NCBI GenBank assembly: GCA_945787635.1
Contig: CALZIK010000129.1
Coordinates: forward strand, 1-39,962
From: Thermoanaerobaculia bacterium
Lineage (GTDB): Bacteria; Acidobacteriota; Thermoanaerobaculia; Multivoradales; JAHEKO01
Length of the DNA: 39,962 nt
Direction of reading: 5' to 3'
Shown: positions 5,065 to 39,962 of the stretch, in pieces
Layout: each line of letters opens with the position of its first letter
Position numbering within the stretch: position 1 is the first letter of the stretch
The notes under the pieces: generated by a model
Seen by the model: only the letters and a program-made list of their open reading frames with translations
What the model was told of the DNA's origin: nothing
Database searches by the model: none
Made by a program: the position numbers and the translations under genes

Positions 5065-5121
5065 AACTCCGAGCGACCCGCAGCCGTACCAGAAGCGCAC
5101 GAACCGGAAAGGACCGCGGAA

Positions 5122-7920: not shown

Positions 7921-10900
7921 TCACTTCGATCCCTCGGCCGGCGGCTCGAGACCCTCGCCCGCGGGCACCGTAACGCTGGCGAGCTGCTGGTAAATCGCAT
8001 AGCGGCGCTCGGCGTGCTTCTGGCTCTCCGCCAGGAATCTCTTGTAGCGGGCCGGATCGAGCTTCTCGACCATCCGGAACCGGGTCTCGAGCGGCAGAAC
8101 CTCGCTCACCTTGCGCTTCGGCGTCTTGGAGTCGAACTTGAGCGGCGGCAGCCCTTGCACCGTGCGCCGCGGATCGAACCGGTAGAGCGGCCAGATTCCC
8201 GACTCGACCAGGAGCTTCTGGTGCTCGACACCCTGGGCGAGATCGTAGCCGTGCGCGATACAAGGACTGTAGGCGATCACCAGCGACGGTCCCTGGTACG
8301 ACTCCGCCTCGGCGAGCACCTTGACGGCGTGGTTCATGTCTGCGCCGAAGGCGATCGAGGCCACGTAAACATGACCGTAGCTCATCGCCTCGAGCCCCAG
8401 ATCCTTCTTGCCGATCTCCTTGCCGGCCACCGCGAACTTCGCCGAGGCGCCGAGTGGCGTCGCCTTGGACGCCTGGCCGCCGGTGTTCGAATAGACTTCG
8501 GTGTCCATGACCAGAACGTTGACGTCGCGCTTGAGCGACAGAACGTGATCGAGGCCGCCGTAACCGATGTCATAGGCCCAACCATCGCCGCCCAGGAGCC
8601 AGACGCTCTTGCGGACCAGGTAGTCGGCGATCCCGGCCAGCCGGTCGGCGCGTGGGTCATTCATCGCGACGAGCTTGGTCCGAAGGCGCTCGACCCGGCT
8701 GCGCTGCGCCGAGAGCTCGCCTTCGCCACGCGACTCGGCTTCGAGGATCTCGGCCGCCAGCCCGTTGCCGACCCGGTGCGCCAACTCGGCGAGCTCCGAA
8801 CGAGCCTGCTTCTCCAGGTGATCGACCGCCAATCGAAATCCCAGCCCGAACTCCGCGTTGTCCTCGAACAGCGAGTTCGACCAGGCCGGCCCCCGACCGT
8901 CACGGTTCTTGGTGAACGGAGTTGTCGGGAGGTTGCCGCCGTAGATCGATGAGCAGCCGGTGGCGTTGGCGATCAACAGGCGGTCGCCGAAGAGCTGGGT
9001 CATGAGCTTGACGTACGGCGTCTCGCCGCAGCCCGCGCAGGCTCCCGAGTATTCGAACAGAGGCTCCATGAACTGAGACCCCTTGGCGTCGACGCGCGGG
9101 ATCAGGGCCCGGTCGACGTCGGGAAGATCGAGGAAGTAGCTGTAGTTCTCGCGCTCGCGATCGCGTATCGGCCGCTGCGGCCGCATGTTGATCGCCTTGC
9201 GTCGCGGGTTGGCCTTGTCCTTGGCGGGGCACACCTCGACGCACAGGTGACACCCGGTGCAATCCTCAGGCGCAACCTGGAGCGCGTACTGAAGGCCGCG
9301 GAAGTCCGGAGCCTTGTAGTCGACCGAAAGAAAGCTAGCCGGGGCTGCGCCGTTGCCACCGTTCTCGAGAGCGGGATCGAAAACCTTGGAGCGGATCGCG
9401 GCGTGCGGGCAGACCAGCACGCAGTGGTTGCACTGGATGCAAACGTCGGGCTCCCAGACCGGAATCTCCTGCGCGATGTTGCGCTTCTCCCACCGGCTGG
9501 TGCCTGTCGGCCAGGTGCCGTCGATCGGGAACGCGCTCACCGGCAGCAGGTCGCCCTTGCCCGCCAGCATCACCGAGGTCACCTTCTGCACGAAGTCGGG
9601 CGCTTCGGCGGCCACGATCGGCGGACGGTGTCGAGTCGCGCTCACGTCTTTCGGAATCTCGACTCGGTGAAGGCGCTCGACCGCGGCATCGACCGCGCGA
9701 AAGTTCTTCTCCACCAGCACCGGGCCACGCTTTCCGTAGCTTTTCTCGAGCGCCTTTTTGACCGCCGCCAGCGCCTTGCCACTGGGCAGGAGATCGGTCA
9801 GCGCGAAGAAGGCGGCCTGCATGATGGTGTTGACCCGCCCACCCAGGCCGAGCTCGCGAGCCAAACCGTAAGCGTCGATCACCCAAAAGGCGAGGTCCTT
9901 TTCGAGGATCTCTTTCTGCACCTCGCTCGGCAACCAGTCCCAAACGTCCTCCGCGGCGTGCGGGGAATTGAGCAGAAACGTCGCCCCATGGCCCGCTCGT
10001 TCGAGCACCTCGAAACGATCCAGGAAGTCGAACTGGTGACAGGCCACGAATGCCGCCTGATCCACCAGATAGGCCGAGCGGATCGGCCGGTCCCCAAAGC
10101 GCAGGTGGGAGACCGTCACCGCTCCGGCCTTCTTCGAGTCGTAGACGAAGTATCCCTGAACCTGCTTCTCGGTTTGCCCACCGATGATTTTGATCGAGTT
10201 CTTGTTGGCGCTCACCGTGCCGTCCGAGCCCAAGCCGAAGAAGAGGGCGCCGACGGTTCCGTCGGCCTTCGGCGCGCTCTCTCGCGAAATATCGAGCGAT
10301 CTGTGGGTGACGTCATCGACGATCCCGACGGTGAAGTGGTTGCGCGGCGACGGCTCGGCAAGCTCTGCGAAGACCCTTTCGACGCACGCTGGATCGAACT
10401 CCTTGGACGACAAACCGTAGCGACCCGCGACGACGCCCGGGGTGGCCAACCAGCTCGAGACGCCGAGCGCCTCGGCCTCGCGGATCGCCGTGACCACGTC
10501 CAGATAGAGTGGGTCGCCCACCGCGCCCGGCTCCTTGGTGCGATCGAGCACCGCGATTCCTTTCACGGAGGGCGGCAGCGACCGAGCAAAGGCCTCGACG
10601 TCGAAGGGCCGATAGAGTCGCACCTTGACGACCCCGACTCGCTCCTCGGCGGAGGCCAGACGATCTACCACTTCGTGCACGGTCTCGGCGCCCGAGCCCA
10701 TCAAGACGAGCACCCGCTCGGCATCCGGGTGCCCCGCGTATTCGAACAGGTCGTACGAACGGCCGGTGAGCTCGGCGAAGCGAGCCATCGTGGCGCGTAC
10801 GATTCCCGGACAGGCGTCGTAGAAGCCGTTGGCGGCCTCGCGCGCCTGGAAAAACGCGTCCGGGTTCTGAGCGGTGCCGCGTAGAACCGGTCGATCGGGG

Positions 10901-31229: not shown

Positions 31230-31300
31230 CCACCCGAGACGTGCTCATGCCGGACTCGAAGCGGCGAGCGGGGGCCAATACTAGCCACGCGCGATTCAAA

Positions 31301-31413
31301 TGGCGGAAGCGCATGGGAATCGAACCCACCCTTGACCGAGCATCCCCGGCCGAACAACGGTTTTGAAGATCGCCGGGATCCAACTGTCGACAACAGTCGG
31401 CAACTCGTAACCA
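31301..31413 (-). repeat. tRNA-Sec 3'-half fragment A joined to conserved 45-nt arm
   Basis: Read on the minus strand, 31301-31368 is the 3' half of a selenocysteine tRNA. It has anticodon loop CTTCAAA (UCA), a long variable arm with stem CCGGG/CTCGG, T-arm GTGGGTTCGATTCCCAT, an 8-nt acceptor strand GCGCTTCC, then GCCA. The 5' half (which should begin GGAAGCGC) is absent. Instead the 45 nt 5' of the loop (31369-31413) match those of the two other copies. Similarity with copy B runs on to about 31510. This looks like an att junction. It leaves 31230-31610 with no intact gene. Confidence 0.75.
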
Positions 31414-31610
31414 TTGATGGAGCCGATGGTTGCGAGCCGCAGCTCGGTTGGGCGCTGTTGGCGAGAGTGGACGGGAGTTGCCGCCTACCGCGGCACCAGT
31501 GCACCACGAGAACCACACCGAGGAGTCCTGAAGGGCTGCGCTACACTTCTGGCCGGTCTCGAGGTACGGCTACATTCCAGCTGGTCTCGTTGGCTTGGAA
31601 TCACCCTGTC

Positions 31611-31901
31611 TCAGCCTCGGCTCGGGTGCAGCTGGCAATGTGGACGAGTCGCGAAGGTCAGGCCGACGGCAAAGAAGTAACCACGGTCGCGGTACTGAGC
31701 TCGACTCTGATCGATGAGCTTCACATAGGCTTCGTTGACGAGCGCCGTGGTGTTTAGCGTCTCTCCAGGCCGGAGCCGTCGAAGCTGGCGGCGAGCAGTA
31801 TTCCGGAGCTCGTCATAGACCTCGGGGAAAACCGCGTTGAGAGCCTCCCCGTGTCCGTGTCGATCGTCCTGTAACCGAGCGGTGACAGCGCTGTCGCCCA
31901 A
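31611..31901 (-). pseudogene. truncated ECF sigma factor (sigma-2 region only)
   Basis: About 96 residues from a TTG with GGGAGAG before it. The text HGEALNAVFPEVYDELRNTARRQ and LRPGETLNTTALVNEAYVKLIDQ matches the N-terminal half of the ECF subfamily found beside Ser/Thr kinases in Acidobacteriota and Planctomycetes. After YRDRGYFFAV the family sequence stops, and the frame runs 17 unrelated codons to a stop. The rest of region 2 and all of region 4 are missing. The product could not bind a -35 element. It is therefore a remnant, cut on the side facing repeat A. Confidence 0.75.
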
Positions 31902-32074
31902 GCTCTCTCCCTTCTGCGCACTCGAAGCCTACCAGCGCGTGATGCTCGACCGCGCCCTCTTGCGTTGTAGAGGGTAACCGTCGGAATCGCCGGAGGTTGC
32001 TGTTCGGGCCGGAAAGAGCCGCGAAAGCTAGTATCGGAGGCCAAGTAGAGGCTCTCGACGGAAGGAGACGGAGA

Positions 32075-33463
32075 ATGAGCTTAGACCCACGCGTCCTCGA
32101 GGCGCTCAAAGGTCGCCATCGCGGGGCCGTGCTGACTCCGGAGGACGCCGGCTACGACGACGCTCGCCAGATCTGGAACGCTCGCTTCGACAAGCGGCCC
32201 GGTGCGATCGCTCGCTGCGACGGGGTCGCCGACGTCATTGCCGCGGTCGATGTCGCTCGCGCGCATGACCTTCTTCTGGCCATCCGCAGCGGCGGCCACG
32301 ACTACGCCGGTAACTCGATGTGCGACGGGGGCCTCGTGATCGATCTCTCAGGGCTCACGGGCATCCGGATCGACCCGGCCCGGCGCCAGGCGCGCGTCGA
32401 GCCCGGCGTGCGGTTGGGAGCGTTCGACCGCGAGGCCCAGGCGTTCGGCCTGGCGATTCCAGGCGGCACGGTCTCGACCGTGGGTGTCGCGGGGCTCGCC
32501 CTCGGCGGCGGCAGCGGCTACCTGTCGCGCAAGTACGGCCTGGCTGCCGACAATCTGATCTCCGCGGACGTCGTCACCGCCGGCGGCGAGTTCCTCGTCG
32601 CCGGTGCCGAAGAGAACTCGGATCTCCTCTGGGGCCTGCGTGGCGGCGGCGGCAACCTCGGCGTCGTGACCTCGTTCGAGTTCAGGCTGCACCCCGTCGG
32701 CCCGGAGATCCTCACCGCACAGATCTTTTACCGCCTCGACGACTCGCCCAGGGTTCTCCGCGCCTACCGGGACTTCATGCTTGGGGCACCCGACGCCCTC
32801 CAGTGCTACGCATTCTTCCTCCGCGTGCCGCCGATCCCCGACTTTCCGGAGGAGCTCCACGGCGAGGTGGTGCTAGATCTCGTGGTGACCTGGGCCGACG
32901 CCCTGGAAGAGGGGGAGCAGGTCATCGCTCCATTGCGTCAGATCGTCGAGCCGGCGCTCGAGATCGTCGCCCCACAGCCCTACGTCACTGCCCAGCAGGC
33001 GTTCGACGCCGGGGTCCCCGCTGGGATGCGCTGGATCTCGCGCGCCAACTCCTTCGAGGCTCTCTCCGACCCAGTGCTCGATACGGCCGTCGACAGGGTC
33101 GCCGACATGCGGGGGCCGTTCACCATGGCGTACTTCTCACCGGAAGGCGGGGGCGCGATCGGACGCGCGGCGCCGGACGCCACGGCCTACGGAGCCCGCG
33201 AGGCCCCCTTCGTCTTTCACGTCCTGGCGGGCTGGGCGGATTCCGGCGAAGACGCCGAGGTCATCGGCTGGGTGGATGACGTCCACGAAGCCATGGCGGC
33301 GCACCGCGTCGACAGTCTCTACGTCAACATCCTGGGCGATGGCGAGGAAGAGCGCGTCCAGTCAGCCTATGGCCGCAACTACCGCCGGCTTGCCGAGCTG
33401 AAGAAAAAGTACGACCCGGGGAACCTGTTCCGCGTCAATCACAATGTCAAACCGGCAGCCTGA
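32075..33463 (+). CDS. FAD-linked oxidase with BBE domain (VAO/PCMH family)
   Basis: A 462-residue flavoprotein. AIRSGGHDYAGNSMCDGG near 70 holds the His that usually carries the 8-alpha-histidyl FAD bond. PGGTVSTVGVAGLALGGGSG near 130 is the FAD loop; the position that is Cys in bicovalent enzymes is Val, so attachment should be through His only. The C-terminal BBE motif is YGRNYRRLAELKKKYDPGNLF followed by RVNHNV. Relatives oxidise sugars, alkaloids or polyketides with O2. A strong GGAAGGAGA site precedes the ATG at 32075. It lies alone on this strand between a sigma remnant and a kinase and is probably cargo of the cassette. Nothing here sets the substrate. Confidence 0.88.
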   Translation: MSLDPRVLEALKGRHRGAVLTPEDAGYDDARQIWNARFDKRPGAIARCDGVADVIAAVDVARAHDLLLAIRSGGHDYAGNSMCDGGLVIDLSGLTGIRIDPARRQARVEPGVRLGAFDREAQAFGLAIPGGTVSTVGVAGLALGGGSGYLSRKYGLAADNLISADVVTAGGEFLVAGAEENSDLLWGLRGGGGNLGVVTSFEFRLHPVGPEILTAQIFYRLDDSPRVLRAYRDFMLGAPDALQCYAFFLRVPPIPDFPEELHGEVVLDLVVTWADALEEGEQVIAPLRQIVEPALEIVAPQPYVTAQQAFDAGVPAGMRWISRANSFEALSDPVLDTAVDRVADMRGPFTMAYFSPEGGGAIGRAAPDATAYGAREAPFVFHVLAGWADSGEDAEVIGWVDDVHEAMAAHRVDSLYVNILGDGEEERVQSAYGRNYRRLAELKKKYDPGNLFRVNHNVKPAA

Positions 33464-33506
33464 CGGGCAGCCGGATTGGCCAGACCTGACGAAATCAGGG
33501 TTCAGG

Positions 33507-35795
33507 TCACAGTCCGACACTGCCATCCACGTTCCGCAGGATCTCTCGGAACTCGGGGCGCTCCCGCAACGGACCGAGGACCTCGGGGTAGAAGAAGCGG
33601 ACTTTGGGGATCGCCGCCATCTCCCACCTCTCGATCGAACCGAGGTAGGTGAGCGCGCGGTCGACTTCGTCAAGCGCTGCGTAGACGAGTCCCGCGGAGA
33701 AGGGGTCCGCGGCAGTATCGATCTGCTCTAGCAACTCGAGGGCAGCGGTTCGATCGCCCGCTTTCGCGTGCCCCAGCGCAATCGCAGCCCGGATCTCCGA
33801 ATGTGAGGGCGTCCCGTCCGGGAGCGCCAGCTCCAGCGATCGCTCCAAAGCCACCCGGGCCCGCTCCCACCGTGCCAGGTGAAGCAACGCCATTCCTTCG
33901 TAGTAGTGCGCCAGAGCGTAGTCCATTCTGAACTCGCGCGCCCGCACCGCCTCGGCGAGAGCGTCCTCGTAAAGGCCGTTCGCGAGGTACGCGTCGGCCA
34001 GGTAGACGCGATTCCCCGGTGCCAGGGGGCTGAGCTCGACCGATCGGCGGGCTGGTTCGAGTGCCCGCTCTCGGCGGCCGAGGAGGTCCTCGACCCAGCC
34101 CAGCCAGGCGTGGCTATAGTCAAAGCTGGGATTGAGGTCGATAGACCTCCGCAGCGATCGACTCGCGGCTTCGCCTTCGCCGCGCAGCGAATGCACGATG
34201 CCGAGAGACGCGTGGCCCTCGGCGATCCCCGGATCTAGCTCCGTCGCCCGCCGAGCGGCGGCTTGAGCCTGCGGCAAGAGCTCCTCGCGAGGGAAATCGC
34301 TGTAGAAGAACTGGGCCGAGAACGTGTCGGCGAGGCCCGCCCAGGCGAGGGCGTAGGTCGAATCCCGCTCGATCGCCTGCCGGAAGTACACGACGGCGCG
34401 CGCCAGCTCCGCTTCCGTGCGCTGTTCCGCCATCACCCGCCCTTGCGTATAGAGACGGAACGCCTCGAGGTCCCCCGTCGGGACGCCCTCTAGTGCCGCC
34501 TCGTCGGCGGGAGTCAGCTGTCCTTCCAACTGGTTGACGATCTCCCTCGTGAGCTCACCCTGGACCTCGAACAAACTCTCAGCGGAGAGCGTGCGGCGGT
34601 AGCTCTCGGCCCAGACCTGACGGTCCTCGGCAGCGTTGACGAGTCGGGCGCTGACCTGCACCTGATCGGCGAGCTCCTGGACCTCTCCTTGGAGAATCCA
34701 GGCCACGCCTAGAACGTCTGCTATCTCCGGCAGCGGGTCCTTCGAGCCTCGGAACTGCAGGACCGACGAGCGCGATGTCACTCTCAGGTCGGCGATCCCG
34801 GACAGCCTCGTGAGGAGGCCTCCGTGGATACCCTCGGTGAACACGGTGGCTTCTTCCTGGCCGAGGCTCTCGAAGGGGAGCACGGCGATCGACTCAGCCC
34901 AAGACCGGGGCTCTGCTTCCGGAGGCACGCTGTCTGAGAGGACGGCCGACGCTTCCTCGTCCCGAATCCCGCGAAGATCGTCGGCCAGCTCGGACGCGGT
35001 CTGGTAGCGATCAGCGGGAGCCTTTTCGAGGCAGCGCTCGATGACGCGGCCCAGGCGCCGCGGCAGCTCGGGCCGGATCTCGGTCACCGCCGGCGCCGTG
35101 TCCTTCAATATCGCCGACAGGAGCTCGATCGAGGTACCGCCCCGAAAGGGCCGCCCCCCGGTCGCCAACTCGTACAGCATCACGCCGAGCGAGAAGATAT
35201 CGGCCCGGTGGTCCGCCGACTCTCCTCGCGCCTGCTCCGGAGACATGTAGCGCGGAGTGCCGGCGATCACGCCCTCCTCCGTCCGGACCATGGTGCTCAT
35301 GAAGCTCGAGCCCGCTTCCAGGTCGGGCGCGGCCAGCTTGGCCAGACCGAAGTCGAGGACTTTCACCCGGCCATCGGTCCACATGACGTTCGACGGCTTG
35401 AGGTCACGATGGATGATGCCGCGCTCGTGGGCGGCGGCGACCGCGTCCAGGAGGGGGATCGCGATGTCGAAAAGACGATCGAGTTCGAGCCCCTCCGGTT
35501 CGATCAGCTCGTCAAGCGTCTTCCCCTCGACGAGTTGCATGGTCAGGAAATGGAGCCCGTCGCTCTCCTCAACCGAGAAGACGGTGACGATCGCGGGGTG
35601 ATCCAAGGTCGCCAGCACCCGAGCCTCGCGCCGAAACCGCTCCAGTCGCTCGGGCTCCCCGATCAGGCTCCGCCGCAGCACCTTGAGCGCCACCTCACGG
35701 CCGAGCTTTGTGTCGGTGGCGCGGTAGACCTCGCCCATTCCGCCGGCTCCAATCGCGGCAGTGATGCGGTAATGGGAGAGGGTCGTGCCAATCAT
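33507..35795 (-). CDS. cytosolic Ser/Thr protein kinase with TolB/FlgO-like and TPR domains
   Basis: A 762-residue protein starting [21 protein letters not shown]. The kinase domain covers about 8-275: glycine loop GAGGMGEVY, Lys in [24 protein letters not shown] and SPEQARGE. The residues needed for activity are there. About 305-430 is a TolB-like N-terminal (FlgO-type) domain ([38 protein letters not shown]). The remainder is a row of TPR units ([31 protein letters not shown]). No membrane helix is visible. This kinase type is frequent in Acidobacteriota, often paired with an ECF sigma gene, and the broken sigma gene of the same cassette may be its former partner. Confidence 0.9.
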
Positions 35796-35897
35796 CGTTC
35801 GGGCGTCGAGTCGCGCGACTCAAGCCGTCGAGTCTGGGGGCCACATTCGCGAAGAGCACCCATTGTACTGGGCGAGGTTTGCTCGGCCGCAGCGAAT

Positions 35898-36010
35898 TGG
35901 CGGAAGCGCATGGGAATCGAACCCACCCTCGACCGAGCATCCTCGGCCGAACAACGGTTTTGAAGATTGGCGGGATCCAACTGACGACAACAGTCGGTAA
36001 CTGGTAACCA
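35898..36010 (-). repeat. tRNA-Sec 3'-half fragment B joined to conserved 45-nt arm
   Basis: Same layout and the same 113-nt length as copy A. Minus strand: anticodon loop CTTCAAA, variable arm with perfect stem CCGAG/CTCGG, T-arm, GCGCTTCCGCCA end at 35898. The 3' half spans 35898-35965; the non-tRNA arm spans 35966-36010 and includes the small dyads CGAC-TGTT-GTCG and TTGG...CCAA. The 5' half of the tRNA is missing. The 345-bp gap between the two kinase genes (35796-36140) is otherwise only flanking arm and the kinase promoter. Confidence 0.75.
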
Positions 36011-36125
36011 CAGACAGAGCAGGTAGTTGCGCGGTGCCGTCCGGTTGAGCGTTGTTGAGCAGAGTGGTCAGCGGTTGCCGTCTACTGCACCAGGAGTGCA
36101 CTTCGTGAGGGGCCACTCGGCGCGC

Positions 36126-36131
36126 TAGAAT
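36126..36131 (+). promoter_or_regulatory. -10 element (TAGAAT) placed for a leaderless kinase mRNA
   Basis: GCTAGAAT ends 9 bp before the TTG start at 36141. Transcription from a -10 box starts about 6-9 bp downstream, so the mRNA should begin at or beside the TTG with no ribosome site. Only a weak -35 candidate (TTCGTG at 36102-36107) is visible. Confidence 0.5.
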
Positions 36132-36140
36132 CGCCCCGTC

Positions 36141-38819
36141 TTGATCGGCAAGAGGCTGGCGCATTTCGAGGTCACCGCCAAGCTCGGCGAGGGCGGTATG
36201 GGTGAGGTCTACCGGGCCGAGGACTCCCGACTCGGCCGCGAGGTCGCGATCAAAGTGCTAGGCGAGAGCTTCGTCGCCGACCGCGAGCGGCTGGCCCGGT
36301 TCGAGCGCGAGGCCCGGGTCCTGGCCTCCCTCAATCACACCAATATCGGACACATATACGGACTCGAGGAGAGCGGCGACATCAAGGCGCTCGTCCTCGA
36401 GCTGGTCGAAGGCCCAACGCTCGCCGATCGGATCGCCCAGGGTCCGATGCCGATAGCCGAGACGCTCGACGTCGCCGTTCAGATCGTCGAGGCGTTGCGC
36501 TTCGCCCACGAGAAGGGAATCGTCCATCGCGACCTCAAACCGGCCAACGTCAAGATCACGCCCGACGGCATCGTCAAGGTCCTCGACTTTGGCCTTGCCA
36601 AGGCGCTCGAACCCGAGCGATCGAGCGATCCGGCCAGCATCGATCTGACCCAGTCGCCGACGCTGACCTCCCCGGCGACCGAGCTGGGCATGATTCTCGG
36701 GACGGCCCCCTACATGGCACCCGAGCAGATCGAGGGCAAGGAAGTCGACACGCGCGCGGATCTCTTCGCCTTCGGCTGCGTCCTGTACGAGATGATCACC
36801 GGGCGGCGCGCGTTCGCGGGCCGATCCGTCGCCGACACGCTGTCGCGGGTGTTGCGCGACGAGCCGGTGCCGGCGCGAGAGCTCGTGCCCGCGCTCCCCG
36901 CCCAGCTCGAGTGGCTGCTGGCGAAGTGCCTTGCCAAGGACCCGGCGGACCGCTACCAGGGGGCGAGCGATTTGGCCGTGGACCTGCGCGCGGCGAAGTC
37001 GGCGCCGGCGGACGAGCTGCGCCCGCAGACGCCTCCGGCGCCGAAGAGGCGATCCGGGTTGGTGACCGCGTTCGCCACAGGAGCCGCCATCCTGCTCCTG
37101 GGCACCGGCCTTTTCCTGGGCCGCGCGCTCGCTCCCGATCGGAGCCCACCGACGCGCCGGTTCGAGGTGCTGACCCTGGACCGGCAGCCTATGGCCGCGG
37201 GCGGCGGTCGGCTGCTGGCGATCTCGCCCGACGGTCGACGGCTCGCATACATCGACCGCGGCCGCCTGTTCGCGAGAGACCTCGAGAGCGGCGAGACCAC
37301 TCCCGTTCCGGGCAGCGAGGACGGCATCACGCCCTTCTTCTCTCCCGACGGCGAGTGGCTGATCTTCTCGAAGAACCGCGCCTTTCGGAAGGTCTGGCTC
37401 GAGGGGGGAGAGTCGTTCCAGGTGTGCGACGTCATGACGAGCGGGTCGGCGAGCGGAGCGTGGGCCGATGACGACACCATCATCCTGAGCGATGGGCAGA
37501 CGCTCTGGAAAACGAGCGCCGGCGGTGGCGAGTGCCACCCGTTCGGCGAGAAACAGCGGGACCTGTCGCACGCCTACCGCGATCCGCGGTTTCTGCCGGG
37601 CGGCAAACACCTGCTGGTCGAGCTCGTCGCGAGCGGCGACGGCGGCGAATCGAAGCGCTCGGTAGCGCTGCTGTCGAGAAGCTCTGGGGAGCTGGTCGAG
37701 ATCCTGGTCTCGGAGGCCGGCAGTCCCCGTTACCTCGACAGCGGACAGCTCGTCTTCGCCCGCGGCCAGGCGCTGTTCGCGCAGCCGTTCGATCCCCGGC
37801 GGGGGCACAGGAGCGGCGAGCCGCGGCCAGTTCTGGAGGGCCTCGCGGTCAACAACTTCGCCGAGATGGATCTCTCGCAAGGGGGGACGCTCGTCTACGT
37901 GCCCAGCCGTTTTACGCCGGAGCTCGAGCTCGTCTGGGTCGATCGCGATGGGCGCGAGCAACCGCTGGGCGCGAAGCCCGCTTCCTACTGGACGCCGCGG
38001 CTGTCCCCCTCGGGCCGCCGCCTGGCCGTGGCCGTGCGTTGGCCAGGAAGAGTCGACATCCATCTCGTCGATGCCGAGCTCGGGACGCTGGAGGAGTTCG
38101 AAAAGAGCGCCATCTGGCCCACCTGGACCGACGGCGGCGAGACACTGGCCTTCGTGAGCGACCGCGAGCCTCCGCCTTCGCTCTGGCGCAAGCGCGTCCG
38201 CGGCGGCGGGCGAGCTGAGCGAATCGCCCCGCCCAACGACTTCGGCCAGTACGTTCTCGCCGCCTCGATGGAGCCGAAGGTCTTCACATTCTACGAGGCG
38301 CGCCCGGGCAGCCTACGGGACATCTCGATCATGCGGCCGGGCGAGCAGCCGATCCTCTTCGTGGCCACGCCCGGCGAGGATCGGGCTCCGAAGCTGTCCG
38401 CCGACGCACGGTACCTCGCCTACGCGACCGACACGTCGGGACGAAGTGAGATCTACGTGCGCACCTGCCCTCCCTGCCGGCCGGATCTGGAGCTCGACGA
38501 CCGCACCTGGCGGATCTCGCGCAACGGAGGCAAGGCCCCGGTCTGGAGCCCCGATCAGCGAGAGATCCTGTTTCTCGCAGGACGGAAGATGATGTCGGCC
38601 CGGGTGTTCACCGACCCCGTCTTCCGCGCCGAGCCGCCCGAGCCGCTCTTCGAGACCGACCACCAGACCGATGCGTTCGGCAACGCGAACTACGACGTCG
38701 CACCCGACGGTCGCCTGATCATGATCCGGGCCGGCGGTGACGACGCCTCTCGCCACCGGATGCACGTGGTTCTCAACTGGGGCGCGGAGCTCGCGGAGCG
38801 CGTCAGCCCGGATCGCTGA
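36141..38819 (+). CDS. transmembrane Ser/Thr protein kinase with TolB-like beta-propeller sensor
   Basis: An 892-residue protein from TTG at 36141, the position where this kinase family starts ([21 protein letters not shown]). The kinase domain covers about 8-277: [31 protein letters not shown] near 129, DFGLAKAL near 150, [12 protein letters not shown] near 190. A basic stretch KRR and one membrane helix ([20 protein letters not shown], about 307-328) follow. The outer part is a six- to eight-bladed TolB/WD40-like propeller with repeats such as [24 protein letters not shown] and [12 protein letters not shown], ending [14 protein letters not shown]. The kinase faces the cytosol and the propeller the periplasm, as in a receptor kinase. 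The ligand is unknown. Confidence 0.92.
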
Positions 38820-38904
38820 GCGACTCCGGAGAGCTCTGCCGGCGGGTAGTCCAGAACTTCGAAGCGGGAGTGGCCTTTCCACTACCCGAAGACCGCGGTC
38901 CGGG

Positions 38905-38921
38905 GCGCTAGAATCGCCCCG
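38905..38921 (+). repeat. orphan copy of the kinase promoter (17 bp identical to 36122-36138)
   Basis: GCGCTAGAATCGCCCCG is identical to the bases just before the kinase start. The next bases (CTGGATCGGCCAG) also resemble the kinase start (TTGATCGGCAAG), but no kinase reading frame follows. It lies 90 bp from tRNA-Sec fragment C, in the otherwise gene-free stretch 38820-39158. Confidence 0.6.
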
Positions 38922-39011
38922 ACTGGATCGGCCAGCCGTTTCCAGGTCGGCTCGCTGTTCCCGCTCGACGAGTTCCCATGCGCTTGCGACAGCCAACGCG
39001 CCGCGAGGAGA

Positions 39012-39124
39012 TGGCGGAAGCGCATGGGAATCGAACCCACCCACCCCGTGGATCCCACGCGGCGCAGACGGTCTTGAAGATTGGCGCGATCCAACAGACG
39101 ACAACTGTCGGCAGCTCGTAACCA
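39012..39124 (-). repeat. tRNA-Sec 3'-half fragment C with a different but still paired variable arm
   Basis: Same 113-nt length. Minus strand: anticodon loop CTTCAAG, variable arm CGTGG/CCACG with new sequence but intact pairing, the same T-arm, and the GCGCTTCCGCCA end. The 3' side of the anticodon stem is ACCGTC (ACCGTT in A and B), so this half came from a different tRNA-Sec allele. The arm at 39080-39124 matches A and B. The 5' half of the tRNA is absent. The TonB receptor stop is 35 bp further right. Confidence 0.75.
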
Positions 39125-39158
39125 CTGTCAAAGCAGGCGGTTACGACATGCCGTTTTC

Positions 39159-39962
39159 CTAGAAGCTATACGCCACACCGAAAGACGGCACTATGGTGAA
39201 CGACTCTTCGGTGATCTCGACGTACTCCACCTCGCCGGACGGCAGCAGTGTGAAGTTTCGGTCGTCAACGAGGAACCCGGCTACGTTCTCGCGGGCATAG
39301 ACATTCTGGACGTCAAGGAAGAACTCCAGGGAGTTGCCGCTGGCAAACTCGACGAATCGGCTCACACGGACGTCGAGCCGATGGTAGTCATCGAGTCGCT
39401 CGGCCCTGAGGTCTCCAAGAACTGGCTCGATTCCGATGGTTCCGTCGGGACCGGCCACCGCTCGGCCCGACACCGCAGTCGTCGGCCATCCGGTGTGGTA
39501 GTTGAACAAGCCAGTGATGGTCCACTTCGGGCTTATGGGATACGTGCTGCTCAACGAGACAGCGTGAGTCTGGTCGAAACTGCGGGGAACGTCTCGACCG
39601 TCGAGTCGGTCGGTCACTTCGGACCATGTGTAGCTACCCCACCAGTTGAACCGCCCGACTCCCCGGCGGCTCACGAAGATCTCGAGGCCGTGAGCATTGG
39701 AGCTCTCCGGCGCGATGAGGATCCGATCGCGAGTCGCTTCGGGGTTGGGGTTGGTGGTTTCGAAAATGTTGTCGTAGTACGGCCGCGGAGAATCGATGTC
39801 GCGATTGTAGGCGTCAATGCGTAAATTGTAGGAATCGAACGGCCTTTCCCATCCGAGCACCAACGTGTCCGCACGCTCGGCCGGGAAGAAAGCGGTTTCA
39901 CCGTCCTCGACCTGCAACTCGTTCGGACGCTGGCTCTGATGATACTGCCCCGCGGACGCCCG
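39159..39962 (-). CDS. TonB-dependent receptor, C-terminal part (5'-truncated by window edge)
   Basis: 268 codons are open from the window edge to the stop at 39159. The text is the end of a TonB-dependent outer-membrane barrel: ASAGQYHQSQRPNELQ, then LVLGWERPFDSYNLRIDAY and the strand pairs ARGLEIFV-like (AHGLEIFVSRRG), FNWWGSYTWSEV and HAVSLSSTYPISPKWTI. The last strand ends FGVAYSF, with the aromatic end that BamA recognises. Acidobacteriota often use such receptors, with a CarboxypepD-like N-terminal domain, to take up large substrates. The N-terminal plug lies to the right of the window, so the ligand cannot be guessed. Confidence 0.85.
   Translation of the reverse strand, partial: RASAGQYHQSQRPNELQVEDGETAFFPAERADTLVLGWERPFDSYNLRIDAYNRDIDSPRPYYDNIFETTNPNPEATRDRILIAPESSNAHGLEIFVSRRGVGRFNWWGSYTWSEVTDRLDGRDVPRSFDQTHAVSLSSTYPISPKWTITGLFNYHTGWPTTAVSGRAVAGPDGTIGIEPVLGDLRAERLDDYHRLDVRVSRFVEFASGNSLEFFLDVQNVYARENVAGFLVDDRNFTLLPSGEVEYVEITEESFTIVPSFGVAYSF

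Follow-up and report, generated by a model that had tools for sequence, protein, structure and literature searches.

A tandem cassette array behind the tRNA-Sec gene of a Thermoanaerobaculia bacterium, very probably built by serial site-specific integration

The window analysed here, a stretch of 39,962 nt that represents a whole contig (C129) of a Thermoanaerobaculia genome (G000), contains three direct repeats, at 31298, 35895 and 39012, which all occupy the minus strand and are located where an earlier note had placed them. These repeats raise the question of how several copies of one half of a tRNA gene came to be lined up in the same orientation, and what moved them. Read in the direction of the tRNA, each repeat consists of a non-tRNA arm, followed by UCUUCAAA with the UCA anticodon loop, the long variable arm, the T arm, the acceptor strand and the CCA of tRNA-Sec; the junction reads TCTTCAA[A/G]ACCG, which corresponds to the anticodon loop and the 3' side of the anticodon stem. 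Since ARAGORN detected no complete tRNA in the window, the 5' half is absent, and the interpretation of the repeats as tRNA-Sec 3' halves holds. The sequence common to repeat and tRNA gene begins exactly at TCTTCAAA. From there to the CCA, half T1, the copy located on the neighboring contig C30, is identical to the gene at 69/69 positions, and the alignment is lost upstream of the loop. This places the crossover of the Sec copies within the anticodon loop, and in copies derived from tRNA-Lys, tRNA-Ser and tRNA-Leu identity to the gene likewise starts at the anticodon loop or its stem.

The repeat unit is larger than the exact 113 nt, with an arm of 45 nt, that had been assigned to it. The copies at 31301 and 35898 share 82% identity across 214 nt, and an arm profile gives an arm length of about 145 nt, the far half of which has been lost in the copy at 39012. 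In a search with the 214-nt unit the two full-length sister copies were recovered with E values of 1e-55 to 1e-62 and the truncated one with 5e-30, which excludes chance. Arms of both types described below contain paired 11-bp direct repeats (GTGGTGCACTG GTGGTGCAGTA and variants), and it is plausible from their sequence that these pairs represent putative binding sites of an integrase or excisionase.

The window covers only a part of the array. Its last 64 bases are identical to the first 64 bases of C30, which renders the array contiguous across the two contigs, and the TonB-receptor gene at the end of the window runs on into C30, as judged by Pfam. Contig C30 harbors a fourth copy of the repeat (C30:1681-1894) and an intact tRNA-Sec gene (C30:4045-4140; Rfam RF01852, 73 bits, the best tRNA-Sec match of the genome), which precedes the array and is oriented as expected. 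Starting from this gene, the order is cassette 1, arm and T1, cassette 2, truncated arm and T2, cassette 3, arm and T3, cassette 4, arm and T4, and finally the old flank (Table 1). Cassettes 1 to 4 measure 2.1, 2.4, 2.9 and 4.4 kb, respectively. All boundaries are formed by an arm joined to a 3' half, and the contents differ between cassettes; the intact target gene at one end and the displaced 3' fragment at the other point in the same direction.

Table 1. Features of the distal part of the array in the window.
Feature	Position	Strand	Remarks
Displaced tRNA-Sec 3' half T4	31301..31369	-	69 nt, anticodon loop to CCA; 97% like the tRNA-Sec gene
Element arm, cassette 4	31370..31517	-	Arm profile positions 2-144, E 2e-37; 11-bp direct repeats at the far end
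Cassette 4 body, ~4.4 kb, no integrase	31518..35897	-	Between arm 4 and half T3
FAD-linked oxidase (FAD_binding_4 + BBE), cassette 4	31997..33463	+	Pfam
Ser/Thr kinase with TPR repeats, cassette 4	33507..35795	-	Pfam; start ~100 nt past the CCA
Displaced tRNA-Sec 3' half T3	35898..35966	-	98.6% like the array-edge half of sister species G003
Element arm, cassette 3	35967..36112	-	Arm profile positions 2-144, E 3e-41
Cassette 3 body, 2.9 kb, no integrase	36113..39011	-	Left end resembles G010 too (CCATCTCCTCG...)
Ser/Thr kinase with WD40-like PD40 repeats, cassette 3	36141..38819	+	Pfam
Displaced tRNA-Sec 3' half T2, of foreign type	39012..39080	-	97-98.6% like four G010 tRNA-Sec halves, its gene included
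Truncated element arm, cassette 2 (far half missing)	39081..39157	-	Arm profile positions 66-144 only
TonB-dependent receptor gene, 3' part, cassette 2 cargo	39159..39962	-	64-nt contig overlap; Pfam of the C30 part

Serial site-specific integration at tRNA-Sec very probably produced this cassette array, of which the window shows the distal part. According to the proposed mechanism, a circular cassette would carry a single attachment site composed of the ~145-nt arm, the anticodon-loop core and a complete tRNA-Sec 3' half. Strand exchange by a tyrosine recombinase would take place in the anticodon loop, whereupon the arriving 3' half would complete the tRNA gene and the old half would be displaced and joined to the arm of the cassette. 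Repeated insertion would stack the cassettes with the newest adjoining the gene and the oldest farthest away, so that T4 is, by the model, the oldest and most distal half. Serial insertion at tRNA-Sec had already been proposed in the earlier note and is backed by the intact gene upstream, the arm-and-half boundaries and the differing cassettes, as well as by a half of foreign type, a distal flank common with a sister species and an integrase clade that occupies the corresponding position beside tRNA genes.

The same design is found in related genomes of the family to which the source belongs. In G010, a member of another genus, all seven arm-and-half units (7/7) belong to a single array that follows tRNA-Sec and has cassettes of 0.9-5.5 kb. 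This location ties the unit to cassette boundaries; further units are present in G012, G003 and G007. Beyond its array-edge half, the T3-like one, the flank of G003 matches that of the window with 91% nucleotide identity over 713 nt. Source and G003 therefore have the distal array flank in common and differ in their cassettes. A strict empty site was not seen among the genomes compared, which are fragmented assemblies with some array ends missing, and the parts in common are the 5' flank (G002, G003) and the distal flank (G003).

When 72 genomes from the order and 396 from the phylum were searched at the DNA level, full-length arms were recovered solely within the family of the source. Outside this family (f1) the 214-nt query matches essentially the tRNA-derived part, with a few matches starting up to ~20-25 nt before the loop. 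A weak match in a different family (G021:C251:3290-3345, plus strand; E 5.6e-4, 81%, query positions 121-172) extends from the core end of the arm into the tRNA half. A pattern scan over 84,980 species returned 11 stretches, almost all of which come from genomes of Thermoanaerobaculia or of unclassed Acidobacteriota, and the arm had no match in viral contigs or in phage and plasmid collections. An arm-like 11-bp double repeat without a tRNA half was observed at L157:440-640 on a contig labelled Alphaproteobacteria (nzgw531), for which misbinning and chance spread are both conceivable.

The arm is not confined to tRNA-Sec. In G012, G007 and G000 (C74) the same arm is joined at the anticodon loop to 3' halves of tRNA-Lys(UUU). 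The arms can be aligned to within ~10-15 nt of the crossover, and only these last 10-15 nt are clearly target-specific. A more diverged arm, referred to as second-type, accompanies halves of tRNA-Ser(UGA) and tRNA-Sec in G002. At two sites in G012 (L054:3326-3442, minus strand, C47; L053:5943-6158, minus strand, C379) a Lys 3' half is followed by a degenerate tRNA-Sec 3' half, which begins at the anticodon loop with no arm separating the two; L053 additionally contains a short copy of the tRNA-Lys T arm and acceptor. Such fusions are possibly the fossil of a target switch.

If the half upstream of a cassette arrived together with that cassette, as the model holds, displaced halves should resemble the genome from which the cassette came. 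T2 shares 97-98.6% identity with the tRNA-Sec gene of G010 and with three displaced halves of that genome. Among the nine best matches of T2, reaching down to 77%, native halves of its own genus are absent; the only own-genus entry (G003:C450, 87%) is itself a G010-like half. Moreover, the sequence following the CCA of T2 (CCATCTCCTCG) matches that of G010 as well, and a match of this left flank is predicted by the model. T2 is thus of a foreign type by sequence and would have come from a different genus, in which case the array records gene exchange between species. Two further regions, both devoid of integrases, appear to have moved recently between genera. The kinase region of G010 cassette 5 and G012 cassette 3 is 94% identical over 825 nt at an rpoB identity of 80%, with the similarity starting at the kinase start codon and not at the cassette boundary. 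The TonB cassettes of G000 and G007 are 90% identical across 257 nt, compared with 79% for rpoB of both genera, a value for which G003 was used in place of G000, whose rpoB was not found. In G000 this match sets in at the CCA; in G007 it starts from the CCA belonging to a short repeat unit located behind the gene. In addition, the first 800 nt of cassette 4, from the boundary on, are homologous to G012 cassette 3 (73% nucleotide identity). Since displaced halves retain the arriving sequence, such arrays may be read as an ordered, donor-labelled record of gene transfer.

Ser/Thr kinases are enriched among the cargo of the window and of the G010 and G012 arrays. Compared with expectations from genome-wide counts against array spans, two kinases were seen in G000 where 0.075 were expected (P 0.003), three in G010 (0.23; P 0.002), two in the Sec array of G012 (0.027; P 0.0004) and three on its Lys contigs (0.076; P 7e-5), with P values that assume independent kinases and were computed post hoc. 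This bias suggests one way in which signalling genes may come to be shared among these Acidobacteriota. Between cassettes that differ otherwise, the DNA for the kinase N terminus reaches up to 95% identity. PADLOC matches of the kinases (PD-T4-6 and others) reflect the generic kinase domain and do not speak for a role in defence. Cassette 1 encodes an amidohydrolase and a DUF4440 protein, and conjugation or mobilisation genes were not identified among the annotated cargo.

Which recombinase acts on these cassettes can be approached through their relatives. Tyrosine-recombinase elements had been named as the source of the displaced halves. In the family, a single clade of tyrosine integrases, with ~40-85% identity among its members, lies downstream of tRNA genes on the same strand, mostly within ~120 nt, its neighbors being tRNA-Sec (G002:C113), tRNA-Ser(UGA), tRNA-Lys(UUU), tRNA-Leu and tRNA-Arg. 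A complete element in G007:C180 comprises tRNA-Lys (609-684), the integrase (723-1787), a body and a displaced Lys half (5072-5116), which starts in the anticodon loop; its arm is too diverged for the profile of the type-1 arm found in the window. An integrase is also enclosed in the second-type Sec element of G002:C113, which in addition encodes a P4-family primase, pointing to a satellite-like helper. The Sec cassettes themselves carry no integrase: PF00589 has no match in any of those of G000 (4/4) and G010 (7/7), nor anywhere else on the G010 contig that holds the array, so that the integrase gene expected inside each island is lacking. A clade integrase was not found beside type-1 Sec arms; adjoining integrases occur only with second-type arms (G002) and with Lys and Leu elements. 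The G012 assembly, 86% complete, contains no PF00589 match at all, not even XerC or XerD.

Cassettes that carry ordinary cargo and no recombinase were most likely mobilised in trans, and with moderate confidence it can be proposed that the Sec cassettes were moved by an integrase supplied by a related element. A more far-reaching reading, which is tentative and to which we give slightly less than even credence, regards the arrays as a convergent, integron-like cassette system based on tRNA genes: a shared arm would be retargeted between Sec and Lys by a swap of core and 3' half, moved between genera by integrases acting in trans, and would preferentially spread Ser/Thr kinases, with the halves recording donor lineages. 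The main competitor, considered doubtful but not negligible, is a decayed array, in which integrase-bearing islands later lost their integrase and persist as immobile CIME remnants. Broken integrases of the clade in G000:C91 and G010:C30, G000 retaining only such fragments, and the truncated arm at 39012 would fit this account, and decay followed by accretion is the usual explanation of CIMEs (PMC5704250). However, decay would have had to remove PF00589 from every Sec cassette of G000 and G010, while the cassettes are compact, with genes often beginning ~100 nt from the CCA; Lys-site and Sec-site cassettes of G012 carry the same cargo, both without an integrase; and the apparently recent transfers between genera involve integrase-free regions.

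In integrons, too, cassettes lacking an integrase are lined up in one orientation behind a single fixed site. The repeats could accordingly be taken for folded, single-stranded attC-like sites with tRNA-Sec in the role of attI, a view to which the orientation of the cassettes and the somewhat better folding of the arm as single-stranded DNA than of shuffled sequences (z = -2.3) lend themselves. Yet 15 repeats contain no compensatory pairs (covariation term -0.03), leaving a conserved attC-like fold without support, the anticodon-loop crossover with its target-specific core resembles that of phage-type integrases, and the associated recombinases score 49 bits against a cut-off of 265 bits for the integron integrase (TIGR02249), which makes this explanation very improbable. 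A reading of the 214-nt unit as a structured RNA gene, or as a dispersed repeat, with no relation to cassette boundaries is scarcely credible despite the multiple copies of the unit per genome and its partial tRNA likeness, given that the Sec copies of G000 and G010 sit in arrays behind tRNA-Sec, that similarity outside the family is essentially that of the tRNA-derived part, and that a stable complete RNA finds no support either in Rfam, with no match in the window, or in compensatory pairing.

The array, taken as the product of serial integration, is not without precedent, contrary to the earlier note: accretion arrays at tRNA and tmRNA genes are already known, and by analogy it may be described as a variant resembling CIME and additive-island arrays. 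An array of this kind at tRNA-Sec in Acidobacteriota is not named in the literature searched, the coverage of which was partial. The ssrA islands of Dehalococcoides, 15 of which have no integration module, are likewise arranged in tandem behind an essential single-copy RNA gene, bounded by repeats of the 3' end of that gene with a conserved motif adjoining the repeat, and biased towards one cargo family, rdhA there and kinases here (PMC3146451). In contrast to their serine recombinase, crossover in the tmRNA T-loop and 20-bp repeat, the present arrays show an association of tyrosine-recombinase type, an anticodon-loop crossover, a 69-nt half, a ~145-nt arm and several tRNA targets. With CIMEs and ICE-IME accretion arrays they share attachment sites retained without an integrase and stacked in tandem on the 3' portion of a tRNA gene, although the arm at 39012 lacks its far half; CIMEs, however, are usually remnants of conjugative or mobilizable elements (PMC5704250), whereas here the annotated cargo yielded no genes of that kind and the form recurs across genera.

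A regenerated tRNA gene with a displaced 3' fragment and an anticodon-loop crossover also characterizes the anticodon-centred (A) sites of Islander, which lists 2083 islands with this crossover and only 4 tandems of three or more (PMC4383910). Because Islander needs an integrase per island, the integrase-less arrays described here would be missed, as they would by any island finder with this demand. As described in the consulted part of PMC10872708, additive islands acquire gene content at a tRNA gene whose 3' end is repeated, and tycheposons are cargo elements bordered by a tRNA gene and equipped with a tyrosine recombinase. They differ in having 20-bp tRNA-Lys repeats or a larger size of 4-200 kb, and a long arm common to several tRNA targets is not described in that part. 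The Sec cassettes measure ~0.9-5.5 kb and contain no recombinase; the G002 element bears both an integrase and the P4-type primase.

Further sequences related to tRNA-Sec were observed in the order. Several tRNA-Sec halves are followed by a palindromic unit of ~100 nt, in which an inverted and then a direct copy of the T arm and acceptor are combined (GCGCATGGGAAC ... GATTCCCATGCGCTTCCGCCA), sometimes in tandem (L047, about 10110-10213, minus strand; L052, 8516-8700; L055, 8650-8849, minus strand; L098; L102). In many of the order's genomes, tRNA-Sec is also followed by short direct copies of these parts. The sequence at L101:3076-3171 (G001:C67) is called tRNA-Sec by ARAGORN, with a 5' half unlike that of tRNA-Sec, and looks like another displaced half joined to a different arm.
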